From assembly GCF_003570885.1 (NCBI RefSeq), contig NZ_QXJC01000003.1, forward strand, positions 186,001 through 250,000: a stretch of 64,000 nucleotides of DNA, in the 5' to 3' direction. Positions within the stretch are counted from its first letter, which is position 1, and every line of letters begins with the position of its first letter. Below the pieces are notes generated by a model. It made no database searches. It saw nothing but the letters and a program-made list of their open reading frames with translations, and was not told where the DNA came from. The DNA comes from Simplicispira hankyongi (GTDB lineage: Bacteria; Pseudomonadota; Gammaproteobacteria; Burkholderiales; Burkholderiaceae_C). Shown one piece after another: positions 4,527 through 63,561 of the stretch. The translations under genes and the position numbers were made by a program.

Positions 4527-5752
4527 GACAACAGCTCCGCGAAGGAAATAAAGCGCACCGTGTCGCCCACCGCAATGGTATGGCCGGCCGGGTTGTCCAC
4601 CACACCATCGCCCCAGACGGCCGAGGTGAGCACGCCCGAGCTCTGGTTCCCAAACAGGTCCAGACCACCGGCATCGTTGTGGCGCACCCGCAAGAATTCA
4701 CGCCGTTTATCGGCCTTTTCGCAGGTGAAATCTGCACGAGCAGCTATTGTTTTAGGAGCGACGTCGGCCACACCTTGCAAGCGCAGCAAAAACGGCCGCA
4801 CCAGCACCGCGAAGGTCAGAAAGCTAGACACCGGGTTGCCAGGCAAGCCCATGAAGTGCGCGTTGCCGATGCGCCCATAGGCGAAGGGTTTGCCGGGTTT
4901 CATGGCGATCTGCCACAGGTCCAGGCGCCCGAGGGCCTCGACGGCAGGCTTGATGTGGTCTTCCTCGCCCACCGAAACCCCGCCGCTGGTCAAAATCAGG
5001 TCGTGCGCCTCGGCCGCCTTGCGCAGCGCGGCAATGGTGGCGTCCCGCTGGTCGGGCACGATGCCGAAGTCGCTCACCTCGCAGCCCAGGCGCAGCAGCA
5101 TGGCGCGCAGAAAGAAGCGGTTGCTGTTGTAGATGGCGCCGGGTTTCATGTTGCGCGGCGCCACTTCGCCTGGCATGACCAGTTCGTCGCCAGTGGAAAA
5201 CAGCGCCACGCGCGGGCGGCGTGCCACCAGCAGGTGCGCCAGGCCGATGCTGGCGGCAAGGCCGAGCTCTGCCGGGGTGAGGCGCTTGCCAGCGGCCAGC
5301 ACTTCGCTGCCCAGAGTGATGTCTTCGCCAGCGCAGCGAATCCATTGGCCGGGGCGGGGCACGGCGTTGACGCGGACGGCGCCGCCGTCCAGCGCCACGC
5401 AGTCTTCCTGCATCACGATGGCGTCAGCCCCTGCGGGCACGGGCGCGCCGGTGAAGATGCGCGCTGCGCTACCAAGTGCGAGCGGCTCACCCGCACTGCC
5501 GGCCGCAATGCGCTGCGAGACCGGCAGCTCGGCGCCAGCCTGCGGCACATCGGCGCAGCGCAGGGCGTAGCCGTCCATGGCGCTGTTGTCCTGGGGCGGC
5601 ACGTGCAGCGGCGAGACCGCGCCCGTCTGCAGCACGCGGCCGTCGGCATCCCAGGTGGCCACCGTGTCGCTGCCGGCCAGCGGCACTGCGTGTGCCAGCA
5701 GCTCGGCCAGCGCTTCGTCCAGAGGTTTGAGCGGCTTCATCGGTGGGCGCAT
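4523..5752 (-). CDS. moeA: Molybdopterin molybdenumtransferase MoeA
   Basis: MoeA inserts molybdate into adenylated molybdopterin. The 409 residues show the family signatures in order: DNSAMDGYA (about residue 55), TGAPVPAGADAIVMQ (about 100), SGGVSVGEEDH (about 260), MKPGKP and GLPGNPVSS (about 305). GGAGAG-like GGAGAG upstream of ATG 5752 (sequence GGAGAG, eight bases away) supports this start. It overlaps mobB by 16 bases and moaD by 4, forming mobB-moeA-moaD. Codons near 4741-4762 (protein PKTIAARA) are AT-rich and match one arm of the dispersed palindromic repeat. The product is needed by XdhAB encoded at 22-26 kb. Confidence 0.96.
   Translation of the reverse strand: MRPPMKPLKPLDEALAELLAHAVPLAGSDTVATWDADGRVLQTGAVSPLHVPPQDNSAMDGYALRCADVPQAGAELPVSQRIAAGSAGEPLALGSAARIFTGAPVPAGADAIVMQEDCVALDGGAVRVNAVPRPGQWIRCAGEDITLGSEVLAAGKRLTPAELGLAASIGLAHLLVARRPRVALFSTGDELVMPGEVAPRNMKPGAIYNSNRFFLRAMLLRLGCEVSDFGIVPDQRDATIAALRKAAEAHDLILTSGGVSVGEEDHIKPAVEALGRLDLWQIAMKPGKPFAYGRIGNAHFMGLPGNPVSSFLTFAVLVRPFLLRLQGVADVAPKTIAARADFTCEKADKRREFLRVRHNDAGGLDLFGNQSSGVLTSAVWGDGVVDNPAGHTIAVGDTVRFISFAELLS
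4741..4762 (+). repeat. Partial copy of the dispersed palindromic element, inside moeA
   Basis: The sequence CAGCTATTGTTTTAGGAGCG matches the AT-rich arm seen at 51204-51222 (CAGCTATTAAATCAGGAGC). The core hairpin is not preserved. It is an AT-rich patch in an otherwise GC-rich gene and remains in frame. This copy is the weakest of the set. Confidence 0.4.
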
Positions 5753-13473: not shown

Positions 13474-13494
13474 CGCGGCTCGTCACGGGCTAAA

Positions 13495-13538
13495 AGAGCT
13501 GCCAGCGCTTGTTCCACATGCGCTGGCAGCTCTTTTTG
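13495..13538 (+). terminator. Rho-independent terminator after phoH
   Basis: A 13-bp perfect stem AGAGCTGCCAGCG (13495-13507) and CGCTGGCAGCTCT (13521-13533) with a 13-base loop, followed by TTTTGTT. It ends the phoH transcript just before the palindromic element and convergent dnaB. Confidence 0.88.
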
Positions 13539-13562
13539 TTGATGGTGAAGAACGCGTAGCCT

Positions 13563-13621
13563 GCTACGCAATAGATAGCTGCTAGCGCTTACCCAATAAG
13601 CGCTAGCAGCCATTTTGACTA
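13563..13621 (+). repeat. Palindromic element copy 3 (between phoH and dnaB)
   Basis: ATAGCTGCTAGCGCTTA and AATAAGCGCTAGCAGCC arms are followed by ATTTTGACTA. The final CTA (13619-13621) is the dnaB TAG stop on the minus strand. A second small palindrome GCGTAGC-CTG-CTACGC (13554 onward) abuts it. Confidence 0.85.
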
Positions 13622-15028
13622 AAAATCGTCGCCAGACCCCATCGCCAGGCTCTCGAAGCGCGTCTGCGACTTCTGGAAGAACAGCTTGACCGTGCCCGTG
13701 GGGCCGTTGCGCTGCTTGCCAATGATGATCTCGGCGACGTTGGGCTCCTTGCTGTCCTTGTTGTAGTAGTCGTCGCGGTAGATGAACATGATGATGTCGG
13801 CGTCCTGCTCGATGGCGCCGGATTCGCGCAGATCGCTCATCATGGGGCGTTTGTCGGTGCGCGTCTCCACGCTGCGGTTGAGCTGCGAGAGCGCGATCAC
13901 CGGGCACTGCAGTTCTTTGGCGAGCATCTTGAGCCCGCGCGAAATCTCGCCCAACTCGGTGGCGCGGTTCTCGCCCTGTGAACCAGCCGAGCCGCTCATC
14001 AGCTGCAAATAGTCGACCACGATCAGGCCCAGCTTGCCGCACTGGCGCGCCAGGCGCCGGGCGTTGGCGCGCAGCTCGCTGGGGGTCAGGCCCGGGGTTT
14101 CGTCGATATGCAGCGAGACGTTGCGCAGCTTTTCAATGGCTTCCGTCAGGCGCGGCCATTCGTCGTCGGTCAGCTTGCCGGTGCGCAGATGGCCTTGGTC
14201 GATACGGCCAATGGAACCCACGATGCGCACGGCCAACTGGGCTGCGCCCATTTCCATGGAGAACACCGCCACCGGCAGGCCTTCGTTGAGCGCCACGTGC
14301 TCGGCGATATTGATCGCCAGCGCCGTCTTGCCCATGGAGGGGCGCGCCGCCAGCACCACCATGTCGCCCGCCTGCAGGCCCGATGTCATGCGGTCGAGGT
14401 CGATGAACCCCGTGGGCACGCCGGTGATGTCGTTGGGGTTGTCCGCCATCTCCTGCACGCGGTCGAGCAGGTTGACCACCAGGGTGTCCATGCCCTGGAA
14501 GCCCTGCTTCATGCGCGAGCCTTCCTCGCCGATGTTGAAGATCTTCTGCTCGGCTTCGTCCAAGATCTTGTCTACCGGTCTGCCTTGCGGATTGAAGGCA
14601 TTGGTGGCGATTTCGTCGCTGGCGGTGACGAGTTTGCGCAAAATGGCGCGCTCGCGCACGATTTCGGCATAGCGGCGGATGTTGCTGGCGCTGGGCACGT
14701 ACTGCGCCAAGGCATTGAGGTAGGCCAGGCCGCCAATTTCCTCCGACTTGCCGATGCTCTGCAACTGCTCGTACACCGTGATCACGTCGGCGGGCTTGCT
14801 GGCGTTGATCAGTTTGGAAATGCCGGCGTAGATCAGCCGGTGTTCGAAACGGTAGAAATCGCTCTCGACCAACAGGTCGCCGACGCGGTCCCACGCCTGG
14901 TTGTCAAGCAGCAAGCCGCCCAGAACGCTGGACTCCGCTTCGGTTGAGTGCGGTGGCACGCGCAACTGCGCAAGCTGGTGGTCGTACGGTGCGAATTCCT
15001 CGTCAACCGGCATCATGAATTCGGACAT
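13619..15028 (-). CDS. dnaB: Replicative DNA helicase DnaB
   Basis: The hexameric replication-fork helicase, 469 residues. The N-terminal domain (PPHSTEAESSVLGGLLLD) that contacts primase precedes a RecA-like motor with Walker A ARPSMGKTALAIN (about residue 208), Walker B VVDYLQLM (about 315) and the arginine-finger/DNA-loop region near ALSQLNRSVETRTDKRP. Its TAG stop is provided by palindromic element 3. Two DnaA-box-like 9-mers lie upstream. Confidence 0.97.
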   Translation of the reverse strand: MSEFMMPVDEEFAPYDHQLAQLRVPPHSTEAESSVLGGLLLDNQAWDRVGDLLVESDFYRFEHRLIYAGISKLINASKPADVITVYEQLQSIGKSEEIGGLAYLNALAQYVPSASNIRRYAEIVRERAILRKLVTASDEIATNAFNPQGRPVDKILDEAEQKIFNIGEEGSRMKQGFQGMDTLVVNLLDRVQEMADNPNDITGVPTGFIDLDRMTSGLQAGDMVVLAARPSMGKTALAINIAEHVALNEGLPVAVFSMEMGAAQLAVRIVGSIGRIDQGHLRTGKLTDDEWPRLTEAIEKLRNVSLHIDETPGLTPSELRANARRLARQCGKLGLIVVDYLQLMSGSAGSQGENRATELGEISRGLKMLAKELQCPVIALSQLNRSVETRTDKRPMMSDLRESGAIEQDADIIMFIYRDDYYNKDSKEPNVAEIIIGKQRNGPTGTVKLFFQKSQTRFESLAMGSGDDF

Positions 15029-22333: not shown

Positions 22334-23829
<1,496 letters not shown>

Positions 23830-36252: not shown

Positions 36253-37485
36253 CTATTGCACCGGCGCACCCGCCTCGAACCAGCGCCCCACCAGCGCACG
36301 CTCTTCGTCCGTCATGCCGGTGGCGTTGTTCATGGGCATGAGCTTTTGCACCACCACCATCTGGTAAATGCTCTGTGCGTTCTGTCGTACCAGGGCTGGT
36401 GAATCGAGCCGTATGTTCTTCATCTGTACCTGGGCGCCGTGGCACATGTAGCAGCGTTGTTCGAGAACGGCATGGAGTTTTTCATAGCCAATTAACCCTG
36501 CAGCGCTTGACTGGCTTGCGCTGGAAGCTATCGAACTTGTAGTACTCGCAACCACGGGAGCCGGCCGCAACCAAACGATGACGCCCACAATCACCGCCAT
36601 GCCTACCAGCGCGTACGGCAGCGGGTTGCCATTGCGCCCTAGTTTGTAACCGTGGCGCGTGACGAAAAACTGGCGAATCGCGGCGCCGGCAAACATCATC
36701 AGAATCAGTACCAGCCAGTTCTGCGGGTGGTTCCAGGTAAAGCTGTAGTGGCCGCTCAGCATGGCAAACAGCACCGGCAGCGTGAAGTACGTGTTGTGCA
36801 CGCTGCGCTGCTTGCCGCGCTTGCCGTGGATCGGGTCGACCGGCTGGCCGGCCTTGATCTGTGCCACCACGGTGCGCTGGCCCGGAATGATCCAGAAAAA
36901 CACGTTGGCGCTCATGGCGGTGGCCATCATGGCACCCACCAGCAAAAAGGCTGCGCGCCCCGCAAACCAGTGGCAGGCCAGCCAGGAGGCCATGCACACC
37001 AGCACCAGCACCAGCAAACCTACGATGGTGTCGCCATTCTTCTTCTGGCCAAACACGCGGCAAATGGCGTCGTACAGCACCCAGAACACCACCAGAAAGG
37101 CGAGCGCCACGGCAATGGCTTCGGCGGGGGCCCATGCCATCTTGGACTTGTCTACAAGATAGGTGCTGGCGCTCCAAAGGTACGACACCGTGAACAGCGA
37201 GAAGCCGCTTAGCCAGGTGGTATAGCTTTCCCAAAAGAACCAGTGCAAATGCTTGGGCAGTTGGGGCGGTGCCACATTGAACTTGACCGGGTGGTAGAAG
37301 CCCCCACCGTGCACAGCCCAGAGTTCGCCGCTGACGCCTTGGCGCTTTTGCTCCGCGTCCTCGGGCGGCGTGAGGCTGCTGTCGAGAAAGACGAAGTAGA
37401 ACGACGAGCCGATCCAGGCAATGGCGGTGATGACGTGGACCCAGCGCAGCAGCAGGTTGGCCCAGTCAAACAGATAGCTTTCCAT
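36253..37485 (-). CDS. puuD: Urate oxidase PuuD, integral membrane with cytochrome c domain
   Basis: A 410-residue protein that oxidises urate to 5-hydroxyisourate. The N-terminal part (MESYLFDWANLLLRWVHVIT onward) has about eight membrane segments with conserved histidines. The C-terminal part is a small class I cytochrome c with one CxxCH motif (CYMCH, about residue 362), passing electrons to the respiratory chain instead of producing hydrogen peroxide. GGAGGT lies upstream of ATG 37485, which decides the start. It is 193 bases downstream of xdhC on the same strand. Confidence 0.94.
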   Translation of the reverse strand: MESYLFDWANLLLRWVHVITAIAWIGSSFYFVFLDSSLTPPEDAEQKRQGVSGELWAVHGGGFYHPVKFNVAPPQLPKHLHWFFWESYTTWLSGFSLFTVSYLWSASTYLVDKSKMAWAPAEAIAVALAFLVVFWVLYDAICRVFGQKKNGDTIVGLLVLVLVCMASWLACHWFAGRAAFLLVGAMMATAMSANVFFWIIPGQRTVVAQIKAGQPVDPIHGKRGKQRSVHNTYFTLPVLFAMLSGHYSFTWNHPQNWLVLILMMFAGAAIRQFFVTRHGYKLGRNGNPLPYALVGMAVIVGVIVWLRPAPVVASTTSSIASSASQSSAAGLIGYEKLHAVLEQRCYMCHGAQVQMKNIRLDSPALVRQNAQSIYQMVVVQKLMPMNNATGMTDEERALVGRWFEAGAPVQ

Positions 37486-40345: not shown

Positions 40346-41296
40346 ATGACTTACGACAGCACCCTTGCCTACCCGCGCGACCTCGTCGGCTACGGCCCCA
40401 AGCCACCGCATGCCCGCTGGCCCGGCGGCGCGCGCATTGCCGTGCAGTTCGTGCTCAATTACGAGGAAGGCGGCGAAAACTGCGTGCTGCATGGCGACGC
40501 CGGCTCCGAGCAGTTTCTGTCGGAAATGTTCAACCCCGCGAGCTACCCCGAGCGCCACATCAGCATGGAGGGCATCTACGAATACGGCTCGCGCGCCGGC
40601 GTCTGGCGCATCCTGCGGGAATTCCAGCAGCGCGGCCTGCCGCTCACGGTGTTCGGCGTCGCCACGGCGCTGGAGCGCCACCCCGAGGTGGCAAAGGCTT
40701 TCGTCCAGGCCGGCCACGAGATCGCCTGCCACGGCCTCAAGTGGATTCACTACCAGCAGGTACCCGAAGCCGTCGAGCGCGAACACATGGCGCAGGCCAT
40801 GGAAATCATCGAACGCCTCACCGGCACCCGCCCCGAAGGCTGGTACACCGGCCGCGACAGCCCGAACACGCGCCGCCTGGCGGCCGATTTCGGCGGTTTT
40901 GCCTACGACAGCGACTACTACGGCGACGACCTGCCGTTCTGGATGAAGGTGCGCAAAACCGACGGCAGCGCAGTGCCCCAGCTCATCGTGCCCTACACGC
41001 TGGACTGCAACGATATGCGCTTTGCCCTGCCGCAGGGCTATTCGCACGCCGACCCCTTCTTCCAGTACCTGCGCGATACCTTCGACGTGCTGTATGCCGA
41101 AGGCGACCCAGCGGGCCTGGACCGGCCCAAGATGATGAGCATCGGCATGCACTGCCGCCTGCTTGGGCGGCCCGGCCGCATCACCGCCCTGCAGCGCTTT
41201 TTGGACCACATCGCGCAGCACCAGGGTGTGTGGGTGTGCCGCCGCATCGACATCGCCCGCCATTGGGCGGAGCAGCATCCTACACCGAAAATTTGA
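40346..41296 (+). CDS. puuE: Allantoinase PuuE (polysaccharide deacetylase family)
   Basis: A 316-residue NodB-fold enzyme converting allantoin to allantoate. PuuE-type features are NYEEGGENCVLHGD (about residue 40), ERHISMEGIYEYGSRAGVWR (about 75) and CHGLKWIHYQ (about 130). The PuuE family is described as a non-classical, metal-independent allantoinase. ATG 40346 follows gntR by 13 bases, so they may be co-transcribed. The TGA stop forms the end of palindromic element 6. Confidence 0.94.
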   Translation: MTYDSTLAYPRDLVGYGPKPPHARWPGGARIAVQFVLNYEEGGENCVLHGDAGSEQFLSEMFNPASYPERHISMEGIYEYGSRAGVWRILREFQQRGLPLTVFGVATALERHPEVAKAFVQAGHEIACHGLKWIHYQQVPEAVEREHMAQAMEIIERLTGTRPEGWYTGRDSPNTRRLAADFGGFAYDSDYYGDDLPFWMKVRKTDGSAVPQLIVPYTLDCNDMRFALPQGYSHADPFFQYLRDTFDVLYAEGDPAGLDRPKMMSIGMHCRLLGRPGRITALQRFLDHIAQHQGVWVCRRIDIARHWAEQHPTPKI

Positions 41297-41351
41297 ACAA
41301 AATTGGCCTCTAGCGCTTATCTGGTAAGCGTTGGCAGCTCACTTTTTGATA
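41294..41351 (-). repeat. Palindromic element copy 6 (between puuE and uraD-allC)
   Basis: ACAAAATTGGCCTCTAGCGC and GTAAGCGTTGGCAGCT arms flank TTATCTG. The puuE stop TGA (41294-41296) is at the element edge. The element occupies nearly the whole gap to the next gene. Confidence 0.85.
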
Positions 41352-41360
41352 GGAAAGCCC

Positions 41361-61454: not shown

Positions 61455-61541
61455 GGGCTTCTTTCAGCGGCTGCGCACCGCAGCCTGCGTGCGACACACC
61501 ATTATGGACGCCAAGCGGCGACCGGATGCAGCGTCGAATTT

Positions 61542-61601
61542 CAAGCAAAATTAGGCTGTAGCGCTTATTCTATAAGCGCAAGCAGCTATATTTTTCGGAG
61601 C
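61542..61601 (-). repeat. Palindromic element copy 10 (3' end of rsmD)
   Basis: CAAGCAAAATTAGGCTG starts the element, with TAGCGCTTATTC and TATAAGCGCAAGCAGCTAT arms. The rsmD stop TAG (61588-61586) is in the AGCTAT arm, as in lysR copy 4. Confidence 0.85.
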
Positions 61602-62182
61602 AAATGCGCATGCACCGCGCCGGCACGCAAGTGGCGGTGAACCGCAAGGCCCAGGTCCGCCAGGGTTTCGTCGCTCCAGCGCTCGGGGGCTTCCAGGTAA
61701 ATGAACCCCTGCGGCGCCAGCGCGGCAACCGCCGCGCGCAAGGCCGGCTCGAAGAGCGCGCTGCCAAAAGGCGGGTCGAGGAAGACCGCATCCAGACTGG
61801 CCGGCGCGCTCTGGCGCAGCGCAGACACGCCGTCGCCGCGCTGCACGCGCACGGCACCCGCTTGCAGGCGCTGCTGCCAGGCGTGCAACTGCGCCACCAG
61901 CGCCGGCTCACTTTCCACCAACTGGACCGAGGCCGCACCGCGCGAGGCGGCCTCAAAGCCGAGCGCGCCAGTGCCGGCAAACGCATCCAGACAGCGCCAG
62001 CCGCCCAGATCCTGGCCCAGCCAGTTGAACAACGTCTCGCGCACGCGGTCGGGCGTGGGGCGCAGGCCTTCGAGTTTTGCCACCGGCAAACGCGTGCGCT
62101 TCCATTGGCCACCAATGATGCGCACTTCACCCGGCGCTGCGGCGGGCTTGGCGCGCACGGCGCCCGGTGCGGGGCGCTTCAA
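61586..62182 (-). CDS. rsmD: 16S rRNA (guanine966-N2)-methyltransferase RsmD
   Basis: A 198-residue SAM-dependent rRNA methyltransferase. It has VRIIGGQWKRTRLPV at the start, the SAM-binding LDAFAGTGALGFEAASRGA (about residue 62) and the catalytic motif VFLDPPFGS (about 135). The C-terminus ends at a TAG inside palindromic element 10. Its ATG overlaps the stop of the upstream M16 peptidase gene (ATGA). Confidence 0.95.
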   Translation of the reverse strand: MKRPAPGAVRAKPAAAPGEVRIIGGQWKRTRLPVAKLEGLRPTPDRVRETLFNWLGQDLGGWRCLDAFAGTGALGFEAASRGAASVQLVESEPALVAQLHAWQQRLQAGAVRVQRGDGVSALRQSAPASLDAVFLDPPFGSALFEPALRAAVAALAPQGFIYLEAPERWSDETLADLGLAVHRHLRAGAVHAHLLRKI

Positions 62183-63525
62183 GGCTGCGCCCCCAGCACC
62201 ACGGTGACCATGCGATCGGGCTGGAGCTTGCGCGCCATGGCGGCGCGCACGTCGGCCACGGTGAGTGCGGCCACGCGGTCGGTCCAGCCGTCGAGGTAGT
62301 CGAGCGGCAAGCCATTGGTGGCAATGTTCACCACGTTGCCCAGGAGCTTGCGGTTGCTGTCGATGCGCAGGGCAAAGCCGCCAATCAGGTTGTCCTTGGC
62401 GGCTTTGAGCTCGGCCTCGGTGGGGCCCTCGGCGACGAAACGCTCAAGCACCGCGCGCGACACCTTGAGCGCTTCGGCCGCCTGGTCGGGGCGCGTCTGC
62501 AGGCTCACGACAAAGGCGCCGGCGTTCAAGCCCGGCGCAAACTGGCTGGAGACGCTGTAGCTCAGGCCGCGCTTTTCACGCACCTGCTCCGTCAGGCGCG
62601 ACGTGAAGCCCCCGCCTCCCAGAATGTGGTTGCCCACCAGCAGCGCGAGAAAATCCGGGTCGCTGCGCTTGAAGCCAGGCTGGCCGATGAGCACATAGGC
62701 CTGTGCCGACTGGAAGGGAATGTTGATTTCCTCGGCCTTTGCAAGCGGCTGCACCGCCGGCACGGCAGGCAGCGCAGCGCAGGGCGCACCGCTGGGCAGG
62801 TGGGCCAGCAAGGTGCCCACCAGCGTCTGCGCTTGCGGGCGCGAGACCGCGCCGACGATGGACACCTTGGCGCGGCAGGCCTGCAGGCTGCGCTCGGCAT
62901 AGGCGCGCAGGTCGGCCACTTCGATCTTAGAGACGGTCTCTGCCGTCACCTGCTGGCCATAGGGATGCGTGCCATACACCGCCTTGGCAAACGCCTTGCC
63001 CGCCACGGTGCCAGGGCGGGTGTCGGATTCGCGGATCGCCGCACTCCAGCGCGAGCGTTCGCGCTGCCAGACGTCTTCAGGCCAGGCAGGCTGGCCGATC
63101 TGGCGCGAGGCAAGCTCTGCGGCGCGCGCCAGCAGGGGTGCGTCGGTCAGGGAACGCAGCGAAAAGCTGAAGGCGTCTCTATCGGCCCCGGCGCCAAACG
63201 AGGCACCGAGGTCTGCCCAGGCCTCGCCGAGCGCGTTTTCGTCAATCGCCGGGGCATCGCCCGCAGCGCGTACACCCTTGGTGACCATGTCGGCCGCAGC
63301 GCTGGCGAGGCCCGCCTGCGCCGCCGGGTCGCGCCGGCTGCCGGCGTCGAAATCGACCTGCACGTCCACCATGGGCAGCGCCGGGCTTTGCACCAGCCAG
63401 ACCTGCGCACCGCTGGGCTCGACCCAATGCTCGATCGGCAGCAAAGCCCAGGCAGATTGAGAGTAAAAAACCACTCCAGCGCTTATTGCACAAGCGCGAG
63501 CAGCTATTTTTTTAATAGCGTTCAT
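62179..63525 (-). CDS. M16-family peptidase subunit without the zinc-binding motif
   Basis: A 448-residue protein of the pitrilysin/mitochondrial-processing-peptidase family with a signal peptide (about residues 1-27). The segment that should hold HxxEH reads GLASAAADMVTKGV, so it cannot bind catalytic zinc and is probably the non-catalytic partner. A Gly-rich loop GGGGFTSRLTEQVREKRGLS (about 310) is retained. ATG 63525 has AGGA eight bases before it; 63534 is the alternative. Most of the signal peptide lies in palindromic element 11. It is downstream of a second M16 gene. Confidence 0.92.
   Translation of the reverse strand: MNAIKKIAARACAISAGVVFYSQSAWALLPIEHWVEPSGAQVWLVQSPALPMVDVQVDFDAGSRRDPAAQAGLASAAADMVTKGVRAAGDAPAIDENALGEAWADLGASFGAGADRDAFSFSLRSLTDAPLLARAAELASRQIGQPAWPEDVWQRERSRWSAAIRESDTRPGTVAGKAFAKAVYGTHPYGQQVTAETVSKIEVADLRAYAERSLQACRAKVSIVGAVSRPQAQTLVGTLLAHLPSGAPCAALPAVPAVQPLAKAEEINIPFQSAQAYVLIGQPGFKRSDPDFLALLVGNHILGGGGFTSRLTEQVREKRGLSYSVSSQFAPGLNAGAFVVSLQTRPDQAAEALKVSRAVLERFVAEGPTEAELKAAKDNLIGGFALRIDSNRKLLGNVVNIATNGLPLDYLDGWTDRVAALTVADVRAAMARKLQPDRMVTVVLGAQP
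63461..63519 (-). repeat. Palindromic element copy 11, coding for a signal peptide
   Basis: Read on the minus strand: GCTATTAAAAAAATAGCTGC, then TCGCGCTTGT and CAATAAGCGCTGGAGTGG, then TTTTTTACTC. It begins two codons after the M16 start codon and runs almost to the cleavage region, encoding AIKKIAARACAISAGVVFYS. Confidence 0.85.
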
Positions 63526-63561
63526 GGAAACCATCCTGAAAATGCGGGTAGCGGCGTGGGC

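Follow-up and report, generated by a model that had tools for sequence, protein, structure and literature searches.

In Acidovorax ebreus the motif GCTTAT(N)5AAGCG occurs in 114 copies, of which 107 are intergenic (44 convergent, 4 divergent and 59 co-oriented). As far as the accessible part of that report goes, the motif is unnamed and its role unknown, and five copies inside genes are counted without being described (PMC5217627). Among the RU-1/RU-2 repeats of enterobacteria, the copy at Yersinia YPO1552 forms part of a signal peptide predicted by SignalP; the accessible parts of the sources add that its relatives in other genera have unrelated signal sequences and that YPO2495 and YE2643 also have predicted signal sequences (PMC2759123, PMC2229807). 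Rickettsia palindromic elements (RPE), as covered by the portion of the source available, are dispersed, lie in frame inside conserved genes and measure 105-146 bp with long stem-loops (PMC2229807). BRE, of ~90 bp or less, are found in Comamonadaceae and Alcaligenaceae, mostly between genes and in some cases in coding sequence; the sections of the report at hand give 69% GC in Bordetella and 1-4 copies in two Acidovorax genomes (PMC3110155). In the open literature we came across nothing that connects such repeats with signal peptides in this bacterial family, most subscription papers being outside the scope of that search.

The DNA analysed here, the window, is a stretch of 64,000 nucleotides from Simplicispira hankyongi. 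Towards its end lie two adjoining genes on the minus strand:

62179..63525, minus strand: M16-family gene (Peptidase_M16_C), from its open reading frame, Pfam domains and a conserved ATG at 63525-63523
63445..63525, minus strand: predicted signal peptide MNAIKKIAARACAISAGVVFYSQSAWA, likely cleaved after AWA by the AxA rule
63457..63519, minus strand, in gene sense: element copy within the M16 signal peptide, 44.5 bits
63562..64000 and on past the window end, minus strand: 3' part of a second, upstream M16-like gene, from its open reading frame

The M16 gene matches PF05193 (E 1.4e-33) and PF00675 (E 1e-4) in a Pfam scan. Its protein has 448 amino acids counted from the conserved ATG at 63525 and 451 from an upstream in-frame ATG at 63534, which is missing from the three nearest relatives (L010-L012). 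The upstream neighbour is a weak M16 match (G000:C13:249622-250680, E 3e-6), and the junction of the two genes is the site of the element copy. A Sec signal peptide has a charged n-region, a hydrophobic core and AxA preceding the cleavage site. On sequence features alone, the N-terminus of the M16 protein meets these criteria, with a net charge of +2, a best 12-residue hydropathy of 1.69, and AWA present in 24/24 element-bearing M16 loci in the codon table. A sequence-only reading of this DNA had reported the peptide AIKKIAARACAISAGVVFYS on the minus strand, with a basic n-region and a hydrophobic core, and both statements are confirmed. It had also set the start codon immediately before the element and the cleavage site just after it. 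The ATG at 63525 is indeed conserved, but one codon (AAC) separates it from the element, and the likely site, AWA/LLP at ~63445, falls a few codons past the end of the interval which that reading assigned to the peptide. The product is most simply interpreted as carrying a Sec signal peptide cut at AWA/LLP; export and cleavage are inferences, with neither a SignalP run nor an experiment behind them.

The genome holds at least 150 copies of the dispersed element, which is ~70 bp long. A 101-base query found 31 places in its own genome at E<=0.001, itself counted. A model built from 22 other copies (R1), without the M16 copy, found 150/150 scored candidates, all at E<=2.3e-12; scoring covered these 150 of the 2520 first-look candidates. 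That model drew on two linker copies as well as the DUF1289 and L006 copies; all four were removed from the HMM used for scoring, which comprises 40 own-genome copies, none from a signal peptide, and still holds a few copies overlapping gene ends. The window and the next 40 kb (104 kb) contain 15 strong non-overlapping copies (E<=2.6e-8), a density that scales to an estimated ~500 copies per genome. The consensus of the 40-copy HMM, tGCTATTAAATAaATAGCTGCtAGCGCTTATcGaATAAGCGCTAGAGGCCAATTTgACTtAAAATTTttgc, has 71 bases and 35% GC, with the conserved blocks ATAGCT, GCGCT, TAAGCGCT and TTT and a 9-base inverted core. A conserved RNA fold was not found: across 22 copies the consensus structure forms 3 pairs (-1.09 kcal/mol), none of them with changes on both sides, and Rfam gave 0 matches above the gathering score in the window. 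Y1_Tnp, the domain of a RAYT transposase that might move the element, is present in 22/23 genomes, rich and poor in copies alike, and on this presence count does not track the element. The following further copies lie in the window:

4690..4776, minus strand: weak, uncertain copy inside a MoeA-type gene (MoeA_N, MoCF_biosynth, MoeA_C), 30.3 bits
6307..6386, plus strand: dispersed copy, 54.9 bits
9168..9244, minus strand: dispersed copy, 51.6 bits
13487..13546, minus strand: dispersed copy, 41.3 bits
13550..13631, plus strand: dispersed copy, 66.0 bits
21132..21209, minus strand: dispersed copy, 57.0 bits
22897..22970, plus strand: in-frame copy between Fer2_2 and FAD_binding_5, in a gene with Fer2, Fer2_2, FAD_binding_5 and CO_deh_flav_C
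36478..36559, minus strand: copy within a Urate_ox_N gene, towards the end of that Pfam domain
41284..41357, minus strand: dispersed copy, 58.3 bits
46377..46462, plus strand: dispersed copy, 57.8 bits
61532..61619, minus strand: copy at the end of the gene after M16 and in the following spacer

The gene and spacer at 61532..61619 are presumably rsmD-coaD. The place and orientation of this copy are shared by 19/29 loci across genera (L009-L037), and by eye it is better conserved than the surrounding spacer. The copies at 13487-13546 and 13550-13631 have opposite orientations and are a few bases apart. The host protein of the copy at 22897-22970 is of the xanthine-dehydrogenase type, and the copy around position 1501 of L339 sits in what we take to be a kinase-like protein; like the copy in the Urate_ox_N gene, both resemble protein-coding palindromic repeats. 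Context was assigned with crude gene calls to 51 copies in own-genome stretches not selected for signal peptides. Forty are intergenic (17 co-oriented, 15 convergent, 3 divergent, 5 at the edge of a locus), and the other 11 comprise 4 that touch a 3' end, 5 at a predicted 5' end (2 in gene sense) and 2 internal copies. L002-L008, which are in both the copy list and this count, were originally retrieved because they resemble the M16 stretch.

Signal peptides are of degenerate sequence and rich in Ala, and AT-rich gene starts are common; Ala-rich signal peptides written in AT-rich codons near gene starts might therefore mimic the element by convergence. Three observations make this very improbable. 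None of 300 synonymous recodings of the M16 signal peptide, drawn from the codon usage of 14 window genes, reached the 44.5 bits of the real sequence with the 40-copy HMM (mean -1.6, max 13.9). The third-position AT fraction drops immediately after the signal peptide, from 0.71 to 0.14 over the next 25 codons. Finally, N-termini of order-level relatives, and of the element-poor genomes G002, G005 and G007, have no element score. Recoding gave the same outcome (0/300 at the real score) for 25/25 candidate genes (one being a DUF1289 N-terminus, the other 24 signal peptides), 10/10 additional genes and 24/26 further M16 orthologues; one of these 24, L036, scores only 2.0 bits. Because synonymous recodings lose the match, the resemblance is at the level of the DNA and not merely of the peptide. 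Under a harsher null, in which codons were drawn at the frequencies found in the candidate signal peptides, 0/300 again reached the M16 score (mean 19.9, max 44.3); in several other cases recodings did reach the real score, most often for M16 of L013 (64/300), SBP_G021 (40) and M16 of L028 (9). Convergence is rejected by the recoding tests, as far as those go.

An M16-family match was found in 56/60 relatives. N-termini were readable for 29/30 M16 loci of the family, our own counted; L038, which has none, was left out. Of the 29, 24 (own included) carry element DNA at this position and in this frame, at 14.5-45.6 bits. It is missing from L031 and L032 (-5 bits each), L036 (2.0 bits), and L035 and L037, which lack it at that place and, having no ATG at the aligned position, were excluded from the recoding and codon comparisons. 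L037 (genome G034) was entered as element-free in the tree comparison described below; it has a 14.9-bit element-like fragment, shifted and preceding a different hydrophobic core, and its signal peptide seems to have been rebuilt otherwise. The M16 N-terminus of G017 carries the element (40.0 bits) and that of G007 does not. Among the best 80 of 487 M16 loci, 41 score at least 15 bits, 15 score 5-15 and 24 below 5; by label those at 15 bits or more include Acidovorax, Comamonas, Simplicispira, Giesbergeria and Rhodoferax. With the repeat searches, the recoding test and these 24/29 family loci, the proposal of the sequence-only reading that the M16 signal-peptide DNA is a copy of the element is upheld.

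A start further downstream, which would make the element an untranslated leader, is hardly credible for M16. Such a start is likely for other copies, in what we take to be an ABC-transporter ATPase-like gene in L006 and in a gene in L181, but with any later start the M16 protein would be left without an N-terminal export signal. Between the ATG at 63525 and AWA the frame is open in all 24 element-bearing loci, with well-conserved residues, and in G002, G005 and G007, where the DNA has eroded, the peptide can still be aligned by eye. An RBS-like tetramer stands 5' of the ATG in just 16/27 M16 orthologues.

Outside the family the element was not seen: 0/14 M16 N-terminal stretches from order-level relatives match it (N-termini legible for 13), and under stricter filters 0/24 order-level genomes have copies at E<=0.001. 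Orthologues lacking the element had been proposed as a check on its domestication as an export signal. The order-level relatives do lack it, but by eye their M16 N-termini are mostly signal-like, so replacement is likelier than newly gained export. Such element-free, signal-like orthologues had been named as grounds for refuting domestication; since several genera of the family have retained the element, we read them as pointing to replacement and not as a refutation. On comparative sequence grounds, it appears more likely that the element replaced an older signal peptide than that it created export.

It had also been suggested that the consensus itself reads like a signal peptide in this orientation and frame. 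Frame +1 is indeed Ala-rich, but 0/50 ordinary copies pass a crude test in this frame (our own thresholds: no stop in 21 codons, a 12-residue mean hydropathy of at least 1.6 and a net charge of at least 1), and only 34% are free of stops. In the other five frames 0, 1, 5, 0 and 2 of 50 pass, the five being in a minus-strand frame; for random pieces the figure is 59/4000. The frame is not pre-adapted, and capture requires subsequent change. In captured copies the differences from the dispersed consensus are concentrated at positions 30-34, 44 and 50-52, whereas positions 14-19, 24-27, 36-43 and 53-55 are largely retained. Since ordinary copies are often interrupted and too little hydrophobic and captured ones differ in the spacers, the likely path is capture followed by refinement.

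A further prediction, that other copies would do likewise at the 5' ends of genes for exported proteins, was borne out in eight additional families. In total, nine exported-type families begin with the element read in this frame: M16, SCO1/SenC, GspD, ABC auxiliary lipoprotein, Peripla_BP_6, DUF1775, SIMPL, cupredoxin and Chalcone_3. Most of those other than M16 emerged from a search of 26 genomes of the genus with a profile of the M16 signal peptides, which revealed many further places among the matches listed. From these matches 40 loci with long stop-free open frames were chosen by eye; 27 have exported-type N-termini, one (L158) is an apparent fused remnant and 12 are not signal peptides. 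For all 27, 0/300 genomic-codon recodings reach the real score. Pfam, run on one member per kind, identified SCO1-SenC, ABC_trans_aux, Peripla_BP_6, SIMPL, a copper-binding cupredoxin, Chalcone_3 and a GspD-type secretin; the DUF1775 case was drawn from the own-genome list. A second profile was made from 21 non-M16 signal peptides, five of them from our own genome. Element DNA lies beneath all of its best 30 own-genome matches (23-57 bits), and six of the 30 are signal peptides of long genes, M16 included; matches that contain a stop were not recoded. The own genome thus has six element-derived signal peptides (M16, SCO, ABC_trans_aux, Peripla_BP_6, GspD and DUF1775). The survey covers this single reading frame.

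The distance from start codon to element varies (MNAIK, MLRRTALR, MPSKTLK and a longer GspD leader), which indicates separate capture events. Two captured families look like lipoproteins, with a lipobox, by the general rule, at or just after the element. Among the matches listed, 11/20 GspD signal peptides carry the element (at least 16 bits), as do 4/25 SCO signal peptides (at least 13 bits) besides those of genus members; L284, L294 onward, L317 and L319-L327 are left out of these counts. In G002, G005 and G007, element-poor genomes of the same genus, neither the GspD nor the SCO signal peptide has the element. The DUF1289 gene (L162 1501-1773) has an N-terminal extension made of element that is uncharged, less hydrophobic (1.05) and not signal-like. 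In L158 (G010) an element-type signal peptide and an apparently worn cupredoxin N-terminus seem to be fused in frame to a downstream protein.

We consider it highly probable that the M16 signal peptide is a captured copy of the ~70-bp dispersed element and that capture has recurred in the eight other families. The identity of the DNA with the element, its frame, its conserved position, its recurrence and its absence from the order-level relatives examined are observed directly. The order of events is inferred, and may have been as follows. A copy would originally have sat in the short gap between the two adjoining M16 genes, and an ATG immediately 5' of it would have joined it to the reading frame of the downstream one. 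The copy would then have displaced the older signal peptide in some ancestor inside the family, and substitutions, chiefly in the variable spacers, may have made the frame hydrophobic while most of the conserved blocks stayed. Against this account stand the purely inferential status of export, cleavage and translation start, the 0/50 in the crude test, the 39/80 best loci that score below 15 bits (24 of them below 5), the recodings that reach the real score in several cases under the harsher null, the RBS-like tetramer in just 16/27 orthologues, and the choice of the 40 loci by eye among the matches listed, in one reading frame.

Codon choice in the M16 signal peptide is unusually uniform. Among the 24 M16 loci, orthologues that share a residue also share its codon at a rate of 0.86 within the signal peptide (0.59 expected), compared with 0.64 for the gene body (0.54 expected), the expectation being computed from the codon usage of each region. 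Ile8 is ATA in 22/24 loci, and ATA accounts for only 10/326 Ile codons in the 14 window genes. A non-coding copy lies downstream of the gene after M16 at the orthologous position in 19/29 loci, 570-780 bases past the M16 stop (L011 was left out of this comparison). Five of the 10 loci without it (L016, L018, L022, L026 and L034) nevertheless belong to element-rich genomes. These findings bear on whether the element is selfish or inert, with copies at gene starts surviving where they are tolerated and similarity reflecting shared descent without any function of its own. Coding copies do occupy tolerant parts of proteins, linkers included, and RPE in Rickettsia are called neutral or slightly detrimental in the part of the source available (PMC2229807). 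The correlation of element conservation with third codon positions (rho 0.80, 21 third positions) would equally be expected from simple descent. That reading is nonetheless doubtful: codon conservation exceeds that of the rest of the M16 gene, the downstream copy keeps its place, and genome-wide copies and signal-peptide element DNA have been lost together repeatedly.

This joint loss was followed in genomes classed as rich (at least 27 dispersed copies) or poor (at most 9), with a threshold of 12 bits for the M16 signal peptide. In 38 genomes, 12 bits were reached by 20/24 rich and 0/14 poor ones (Fisher p 3e-7; rho 0.84), and two poor genomes retain 9.4 and 5.3 bits. Adding 11 G genomes, a part of those scored, brings the counts to 26/31 and 0/18; L199 and L228 are outside the set. 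The rich genomes below threshold are L221, L233, L238, L240 and G034. On the M16 tree the poor label changes 9 times, at least 5 of them forced by well-supported branches. The Fisher and rank tests ignore kinship among genomes, copy counts of 82, 128 or 150 are lower bounds, and copy count and signal-peptide score both come from models trained on our own genome. A diverged repeat family could thus have been missed; searched with the M16 signal-peptide DNA of G002, the genomes G002, G005 and G007 each yield a single match (our own query has 31 in its own genome), so a missed family is not the explanation in these three poor genomes, the only ones covered by this check. Element-poor genomes are also bigger (median 5.6 vs 4.7 Mb, p 0.0007).

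Joint loss would also be expected if gene conversion by the dispersed copies maintained the signal-peptide DNA, or if GC-directed mutation removed it in some lineages, without selection on the element, and GC3 is indeed slightly higher in poor genomes (p 0.046). We judge this improbable. Whole-copy conversion would erase the differences specific to signal peptides (positions 30-34, 44 and 50-52), which persist; the GC3 ranges overlap, and GC3 has no predictive value for the score within the 24 rich genomes (rho 0.05). As the sole cause of loss, GC-directed mutation is on these grounds a weak candidate. A further possibility, which we consider open to serious thought but somewhat less likely than not, is that an unidentified factor acts on every copy of the element, which would then be a working DNA or RNA site conserved in its place. 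The export signals of several proteins would have been written inside working copies, and loss of the factor would let intergenic copies and the element DNA of signal peptides decay together while the peptide kept the form of an export signal. That something acting on all genome copies keeps the element DNA is an inference. If true, one DNA stretch would be a regulatory or structural element and a signal peptide at once. The coupling of genome-wide copies with silent sites of signal peptides makes such a second genome-wide function of coding sequence testable.

The element offers a natural repeated series, spanning genera and nine protein families, in which a dispersed bacterial repeat became a targeting signal. 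It suggests a way in which export signals get replaced during evolution, and that repetitive DNA can be put to use time after time as an address label on proteins. It also carries a warning: in this family, similarity between signal peptides can mean a shared repeat and not shared protein ancestry. Within the accessible parts of the sources, two components are already known, namely the core of the element as an unnamed motif and, in Yersinia, a repeat forming part of a signal peptide. The A. ebreus motif, as far as its report could be consulted, agrees with our element in its core, GCTTAT, 5 bases and AAGCG matching the consensus here, GCTTATcGaATAAGCG, and in being mostly intergenic (40/51 copies here) with few divergent copies (3). 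BRE, on the data available from its report, differs from our consensus of 71 bases, 35% GC and at least 150 copies; composition and copy number are the sole grounds on which identity with BRE was dismissed. Like RPE, the present element lies in frame within conserved genes, in signal peptides and linkers; unlike RPE it has no long stable stem-loop, and the available part of PMC2229807 gives RPE no signal-peptide role. The prior cases in the open literature, so far as the sources could be consulted, are one highlighted partial case and two predictions, all from enterobacteria. In the accessible accounts the RU repeats concern few loci, form part of a signal peptide and are conserved between Y. 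pestis and Y. pseudotuberculosis, whereas the element described here makes up nearly the whole signal peptide in nine families, across genera, and is kept at silent sites.
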